The notes under the pieces were generated by a model. The model had not been told where the DNA came from. It ran no database searches and was given only the letters and a program-made list of their open reading frames with translations. The translations under genes were made by a program, and so were the position numbers. A DNA stretch of 64,000 nucleotides from Lachnospiraceae bacterium (GTDB lineage: Bacteria > Bacillota > Clostridia > Lachnospirales > Lachnospiraceae), in contig JAFRYA010000003.1 of the NCBI GenBank assembly GCA_017441295.1, positions 62,001-126,000 on the forward strand, written 5' to 3'. Shown here in pieces: positions 55,969-56,661 of the stretch (position 1 is its first letter; every line of letters starts with the position of its first letter).

Positions 55969-56523
55969 TCATCCGGCCTGAACTATAAGCTGTGAAAACG
56001 GCCAGCCATTTTGATATGCCTCTTTATATTTCTCTGTGCATTTCTTATATTTTCTGAAAATCTGTTCGGCTTTTTCTTTATCTGTGTAAACTTTCCAGCA
56101 GCCAACACATTTAACACCTTCGTTAGGATGATCAATAAATCCCTTCACATCTCCCGCGGGATATCCCAGGAACAATCCGATCTCGTGAGGGAACTCATCC
56201 CCACATGCAAGCCTTTTAGCGAGCCGTGCAACACATCTGCAAGGATCCGAGCATGTATATCCTCTTTCCAAAAGTATTTCCTCTGCTTCAGGCTGTCTTA
56301 AGTCTTTCTCCAGAAAATTCAGGCGATACACATAAATCAAAGTGCTTCCGCTTTTCTTTCTGACCGGTATCGCCCGGAGTCCTTTTTCTTTCAAGACGCG
56401 GTTTAAGGCTCTGATATCAGAATTTATTTCTTCGTATGATTCATTTTTAACCAAAAACAAACTGCCTGTTTTGAGTCCGGCCAGAGTCGGCGCGCAATAT
56501 TCAATAATTGACTGATTGGACAT
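55969..56523 (-). CDS. DUF3793 family protein
   Basis: A 184-residue soluble protein of unknown function, found mainly in Clostridia and often beside flavodoxin genes. It starts with IIEYCAPTLAGLKTGSLF and contains RYIYVYR-like TLIYVYRLNFLEKDL, then a GLFLGYPAGDVKGFI segment and KCVGCWKVYTDKEKA with a pair of cysteines. No membrane segment or signal is seen. GGAG is 8 nt before the start. Placement behind two iron-box-like sites suggests a role in iron limitation or in handling flavodoxin; this is inference. Confidence 0.85.
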   Translation of the reverse strand: MSNQSIIEYCAPTLAGLKTGSLFLVKNESYEEINSDIRALNRVLKEKGLRAIPVRKKSGSTLIYVYRLNFLEKDLRQPEAEEILLERGYTCSDPCRCVARLAKRLACGDEFPHEIGLFLGYPAGDVKGFIDHPNEGVKCVGCWKVYTDKEKAEQIFRKYKKCTEKYKEAYQNGWPFSQLIVQAG

Positions 56524-56544
56524 TTGATCTCCTGATTATTATAT

Positions 56545-56563
56545 TTGGTTGCCCTCGGCTAAC
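56545..56563 (-). promoter_or_regulatory. iron-box-like operator, copy proximal to the DUF3793 gene
   Basis: TTGGTTGCCCTCGGCTAAC, identical over 19 bases to the copy at 56612-56630. It lies 21 nt before the start codon. The reverse strand GTTAGCC core resembles the DtxR/IdeR half-site. Confidence 0.6.
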
Positions 56564-56611
56564 TGTATATTAAAAAATAAAAACTTTGTGCTTGCCATCT
56601 TGATATTTGTG

Positions 56612-56630
56612 TTGGTTGCCCTCGGCTAAC
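56612..56630 (-). promoter_or_regulatory. iron-box-like operator, copy next to the -10 box
   Basis: Same 19 bases as 56545-56563. On the minus strand it is preceded by extra bases so that TTAGGTTAGCC, the left half of the DtxR consensus, is exact; the right half GGGCAACCAA is a degenerate match. It sits immediately after the -10 box. Confidence 0.65.
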
Positions 56631-56633
56631 CTA

Positions 56634-56661
56634 ATTATATATTATTATTTTCGTTTGTCAA
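56634..56661 (-). promoter_or_regulatory. promoter of the DUF3793-flavodoxin operon
   Basis: Minus strand TTGACA (56656-56661), 16 bp spacer, TATAAT (56634-56639). The iron-box-like repeat follows 3 bp later. Confidence 0.82.

Follow-up and report, generated by a model that had tools for sequence, protein, structure and literature searches.

Repression by the IdeR/DtxR family has been described in Actinobacteria, in which the operator is a 19-bp box, TTAGGTTAGSCTAACCTAA (PMC10317159, PMC8464063), and each of two dimers reads TTAG-N6-CTAA within this box (PMC8464063). The IdeR protein of Saccharopolyspora erythraea additionally binds a single half site, TTAGGNNNNCCTAA, as one dimer (PMC8464063), and a review of IdeR leaves open the occurrence of single-dimer half sites in further species (PMC10317159). 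The roles of the metal ligands in DtxR-family proteins have likewise been reported (PMC10317159, PMC4805248). In Clostridioides difficile, the flavodoxin gene fldX is under the control of Fur and iron, and is induced at low iron (PMC6311696). Iron control in Lachnospiraceae has been little described so far: a literature search yielded nothing on a DtxR-type feo/flavodoxin regulon for this family, and the only paper on DUF3793 that it returned concerns a fungus.

The window, which is the whole 64,000-nucleotide stretch of Lachnospiraceae DNA analysed here, encodes on its minus strand a DUF3793 protein followed by a short-chain flavodoxin. Upstream of this pair, a Wood-Ljungdahl operon (ACS/CODH beta, RACo, DUF3786 and FMN reductase) comes to its end, and a fatty-acid synthesis cluster lies downstream. 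The promoter of the pair agrees with the consensus at 12 of 12 positions. As reported in the initial annotation, a 19-base sequence, TTGGTTGCCCTCGGCTAAC, is exactly repeated, once beside the -10 hexamer and once near the ribosome site: the two copies are identical at 19 of 19 bases and are spaced by 67 bp. The probability of an exact repeat of this length arising by chance within the intergenic region of ~155 bp is estimated to be below 1e-6. Along the minus strand, the elements are arranged as TTGACA, 16 nt, TATAAT, 3 nt, copy 1, 48 nt, copy 2, AGGAG, the ATG of the DUF3793 gene and, finally, the flavodoxin gene. Copy 1 thus covers the expected transcription start, as it begins 3 nt past the -10 hexamer, and the end of copy 2 is ~11 nt from AGGAG and 21 nt from the ATG at 56523. 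The coordinates of these features are provided in Table 1.

Table 1. Features of the DUF3793-flavodoxin locus, with positions numbered along the window.
Feature	Position	Strand	Remarks
-35 hexamer TTGACA	56656–56661	-	6/6
-10 hexamer TATAAT, spacer 16	56634–56639	-	6/6
TTAGGTTAGCC, left part of the DtxR consensus	56624–56634	-	copy 1 only
Candidate operator, copy 1	56612–56630	-	box GTTAGCCGAGGGCAAC (56615–56630) within the 19-base repeat
Candidate operator, copy 2	56545–56563	-	same 19 bases; box 56548–56563; shortly before AGGAG
AGGAG, Shine-Dalgarno sequence of the DUF3793 gene	56529–56533	-	read from the sequence
DUF3793 protein, 184 aa	55969–56523	-	Pfam PF12672, E 1.2e-55
Short-chain flavodoxin, 140 aa	55518–55940	-	Pfam PF00258, E 1.3e-21; NCBIfam TIGR01753 above cut-off

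The copies had been annotated as DtxR/IdeR-like boxes, with an exact left half of the DtxR consensus and a degenerate right half that was one base longer. In the classical 19-bp sense, which entails four CCTAA repeats, this designation does not hold: copy 1 carries only the two left CCTAA repeats, with CGAGGGCAA on its right side, and copy 2 is devoid of the outer TTAG. It does hold for the single-dimer TTAG-N6-CTAA spacing of the wider family of boxes described below. The exact left half applies to copy 1, in which TTAGGTTAGCC reaches beyond the repeat, but not to copy 2, which reads ACAGTTAGCC. The right half is indeed degenerate but of the same length, with GGCAAC in place of GCTAAC (two substitutions).

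In related whole genomes, the regions upstream of DUF3793 genes share the palindrome GTTAGC-N4-GCTAAC. One such box usually sits at the promoter, and a second is often found close to the start codon. Named genomes (Lachnospiraceae, Butyrivibrio, Shuttleworthella, Oscillibacter and others) provided a set of 80 DUF3793 loci. In 75 of these, the 700 nt upstream of the gene include GTTAG-N6-CTAAC with no more than one mismatch, and hence show the single-dimer TTAG-N6-CTAA arrangement with spacer 6 dominant. Other spacers (0, 1, 3, 4, 5, 7, 8, 9, 11 and 12) were found in 0–8 of these loci each, and matches with N2 or N10 spacers were mostly registers of the same boxes. Across 61 whole genomes, GTTAGC-Nx-GCTAAC occurred at 48 sites for x = 4 and at no more than six for any other x, compared with three sites for a reversed-pattern control at x = 4. 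The GTTAG/CTAAC core is almost invariant in the 80 loci, and the next base is C, T or A in 58%, 25% and 14% of the half-sites, respectively. The box is located at the promoter in 53 of the 71 loci that have both a strong promoter and a box, mostly 0–12 nt past the -10 hexamer. Two identical boxes, as emphasised in the initial annotation, are not a rule of the family, since at least two boxes are present in 46 of the 80 loci and such paired boxes usually differ in their spacer. Separately, pairs of GTTAGC-NN-GCTAAC palindromes, with a two-base spacer, were observed 48 nt apart (L257:2938 and 2986; L258:2553 and 2601). In congeners, these palindromes lie near mobile-element-like genes; they apparently constitute a different site from the N4 box and were set aside.

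Inspection of the 57 proteins encoded behind exact boxes in relatives revealed DUF3793 (eight), FeoB (five), FeoA (four), DtxR (two) and siderophore-type binding proteins (two), and many relatives also have the box at their feo promoters. A DtxR-family gene is the neighbour of box-carrying feo or DUF3793 genes in L069, L077, L078, L097, L103, L109, L112, L114, L122 and L123, which supports the diverged clostridial DtxR-family regulator proposed earlier. A DtxR match is missing in three of the 20 genomes with exact boxes, all three of which are 66–80% complete. In each of two distant genomes, an exact box is immediately followed by an enolase gene (L224:2931–2946, Butyrivibrio sp. MC2021; L080:2053–2068, G031). 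Another precedes a Fur-family gene (L232:1796–1811, Butyrivibrio sp. MC2021), so some relatives may couple their two iron regulators to each other.

The window's own genome was searched for boxes by pattern. The genome-wide scan for the motif proposed in the initial annotation yielded the exact 17-mer core only in the two window copies; support for an iron regulon came from recognising these copies as degenerate members of the palindrome, which is found before feoA-feoA-feoB. This promoter (G000:C32) reads TTGACA-a-GTTAGCCATAGATAAC-TATAAT-tcca-GTTAGCAATGGGTAAC, and its boxes are one-mismatch sites, one of them exactly between the -35 and -10 hexamers; a further box precedes feoB. In these feo boxes, the second half is relaxed as well (GTTATC, GTTACC). 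The same type of box is thus present before ferrous-iron transport genes of the same genome. Exact sites number two, namely GTTAGCCAAGGCTAAC, which follows the -10 hexamer of a gene pair for an HMA-domain protein and a ZIP transporter, and one in an orphan promoter. Palindromes with two mismatches were found at 27 sites versus 23 in the control, so such matches alone carry no meaning. Among the one-mismatch matches, those within the gene for a ribosomal protein and ahead of a hypothetical gene were dropped as chance, and one further match to the 17-mer core, with three mismatches and beside a large open reading frame, was uninformative.

Two observations concern the contig G000:C27. In the ZIP transporter gene that follows the HMA gene (L065:3539–4360), an in-frame stop interrupts the N-terminal part, which may reflect either a genuine lesion or a fault of the assembly. 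The orphan promoter (L065:11861–12105) comprises TTGACA, TATA and the exact box GTTAGCCGTGGCTAAC at the start site; the genes on either side of it converge, and a terminator-like hairpin but no evident gene is found ~180 nt farther on. Its product is a candidate iron-repressed small RNA, and a search of 13 congeners for conservation of this element (box at G000:C27:11894) found no full homologue.

The window copies correspond to GTTAGC-CGAG-GGCAAC, with a perfect left half and two substitutions in the right half; relative to the single-dimer site, the left half is exact and the right one has GCAA for CTAA. They score 5.1 bits compared with 13.8–22 for the other boxes of the genome, and approximately five such scores per 64 kb are expected by chance. 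Two core mismatches per copy and a chance-level score would be consistent with relics, whose right halves have decayed and whose operon is now unregulated or weakly regulated. We regard this as improbable, as independent decay would not keep two copies identical over 19 bases, spacer included, the relaxed second half recurs in the feo boxes, and both promoter and placement are intact. The copies were instead accepted as operators on the following grounds: one is located at the start site and the other ahead of the ribosome site, they are duplicated, relatives have orthologous boxes, and the second half is relaxed at the feo promoter as well. The two copies agree even in the free spacer, which points to a recent duplication in place; paired boxes in relatives usually differ.

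A single DtxR-family gene was found in this genome (L004:1318–1677, G000:C40), and it adjoins no box. The encoded 119-aa protein matches PF01325 and PF02742 above cut-off, which correspond to a winged helix and a metal-binding dimerisation domain, and its fold superposes on MntR, IdeR and DtxR with query-normalised TM values of 0.8–0.9. A C-terminal SH3-like domain is absent, with the chain ending after the dimerisation domain as in MntR. Metal ligands were assigned using DtxR and MntR reference sequences, and the same columns were aligned to PDB chains by HMMER. Residues M7, C98, E101 and H102 are equivalent to DtxR M10, C102, E105 and H106 (PMC10317159), so that the full primary-site set of Met, Cys, Glu and His of the IdeR/DtxR iron sensors is present. 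In most relatives, the Met10 position is occupied by Asn or Asp, and metal specificity may therefore be mixed. No Fur-family gene was found in the own genome, which is ~90% complete, and the best upstream match to a Fur box (GATAATGATAATCATTATC-like; 12/19) was within the range of shuffles. Judging from these sequences, the box is probably read by a short, SH3-less repressor of the DtxR/IdeR type.

The same box and the same protein might respond to manganese, in the manner of MntR, or to a mixture of metals, which we deem rather unlikely. The lack of an SH3 domain, MntR proteins as the closest solved relatives, and MntR as the best sub-threshold NCBIfam match would fit such a signal, and so would Asn/Asp at the Met10 position of most relatives, as found in the manganese-binding Porphyromonas protein (D, C, E, H; PMC4805248). 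However, all members of the group have the cysteine that typifies iron sensors, and the own-genome protein has the full IdeR set. Moreover, the targets are feoAB and flavodoxin, and no manganese-specific transporter family is prominent among the top families.

A leader switch made up of one RNA hairpin per copy (GGUU-A-GCC GAG GGC-AACC) is hardly credible. The copies are self-complementary and folding of the leader is somewhat more favourable than that of shuffled sequences (z -1.99), but the two arms keep one fixed sequence without compensatory changes, as expected of a DNA palindrome read by a protein. In addition, boxes elsewhere lie between the -35 and -10 hexamers or across the latter and are therefore absent from the RNA. 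With neither an Rfam match nor covarying stems, a riboswitch or leader RNA was rejected. Similarly, chance or a recent duplication devoid of any regulatory role would agree with the 17-mer core being confined to these two places but is scarcely plausible, given that the orthologous promoters of relatives have one or two boxes at the same positions.

Taken together, the window copies are very probably operators of the short DtxR/IdeR-type repressor, which would place the DUF3793 and flavodoxin genes under iron-starvation control together with FeoAB. The earlier suggestion that a diverged DtxR protein exerts iron control over this operon is hence largely supported. We infer iron as the signal, repression as the mode of action, and the binding and function of the degenerate window copies. 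In the mechanism we propose, the Fe(II)-loaded repressor would bind as one dimer per GTTAG-N6-CTAAC-type site. At copy 1, it would block RNA polymerase over the -10/start region, and at copy 2, ~60 nt farther downstream, it would provide a second block. Once iron runs out, the repressor would leave, and DUF3793 and flavodoxin would be produced together with the ferrous-iron importer FeoAB, with flavodoxin then standing in for ferredoxin.

Regulator and operator also covary. Lys or Arg at the position equivalent to IdeR residue 43 is paired with C next to the core (GTTAGC) in 21 of 26 half-sites, whereas Val or Ile is mostly accompanied by GTTAGT or GTTAGA, with C in 10 of 50 half-sites (genome-level permutation p = 0.00045, uncorrected for phylogeny). 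The sites were drawn from DUF3793 and regulator loci, with the adjacent base left free during selection, and the contrast is also seen within the window's own genus (G008 versus G001 and G010). In IdeR, Gln43 touches base 1 of the CCTAA repeat, yet is itself dispensable for binding (PMC8464063), so the covariation is evidence for pairing rather than for a specific contact. It represents a simple candidate specificity switch.

As for DUF3793 itself, a flavodoxin gene is located directly downstream in 38 of the 80 loci. In 22 of the 80, a DUF2325 gene directly precedes DUF3793 and the box is ahead of DUF2325, which probably belongs to the same iron response. Examples of this arrangement are L091:4530–4817, L005, L010, L014 and L015. 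The AlphaFold model of DUF3793 is confident (pLDDT 89.7, pTM 0.86), and the family has the invariant motif FPHE.G....YP..DV..F. A PDB search with the model retrieved no fold relative, and DUF3793 may possibly represent a new fold. In G049 (same order), the region upstream of DUF3793 (L027) contains GATAATGATAATCGTTATC, which matches the Fur consensus at 18 of 19 positions, and the DtxR-type box is absent, which at the level of sequence is a regulator swap at the same gene. The link of DUF3793 to iron, already put forward in the initial annotation, is supported by the generalised motif at the feoA-feoA-feoB promoter of the own genome and at the feo promoters of many relatives. It is independently backed by the Fur box of G049 and by the flavodoxin partner, in view of C. 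difficile fldX (PMC6311696). DUF3793 thereby gains a first physiological context, which is iron limitation.

More generally, we lean towards a scheme in which a large group of anaerobic gut Clostridia (Lachnospiraceae and relatives) would control iron by a short, SH3-less IdeR rather than by Fur, with a single-dimer half site as the normal operator and position 43 setting the core-adjacent base. DUF3793, along with DUF2325, would be a core iron-starvation protein alongside flavodoxin.

When compared with the IdeR/DtxR 19-bp box, the clostridial box shares the TTAG-N6-CTAA spacing, the position over the -10/start site and the iron-uptake targets. In contrast, it conserves one dimer's worth of sequence, with the two-dimer overlap absent, and CTAA is adjoined by G (or A/T) where the 19-bp box has C. 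The half site of S. erythraea IdeR has the same geometry for one dimer, but it is exceptional there (few genes), whereas it is apparently the standard operator in the clostridial group, and it reads TTAGG...CCTAA there and TTAGC...GCTAA here. Given the single-dimer geometry and the changed fifth base, the box would work like an IdeR half site and not like a classical DtxR box. The regulator resembles MntR of Bacillus subtilis (PDB 1on2, 2f5f), a short two-domain protein with the closest solved fold, but the manganese ligands Asp8 and Glu99 are replaced with Met and Cys in the own-genome protein, and the targets are iron genes. Finally, fldX of C. difficile is likewise a low-iron flavodoxin gene but has a Fur box, whereas Fur was not found in the own genome, in which a DtxR-family protein seems to fill this role.
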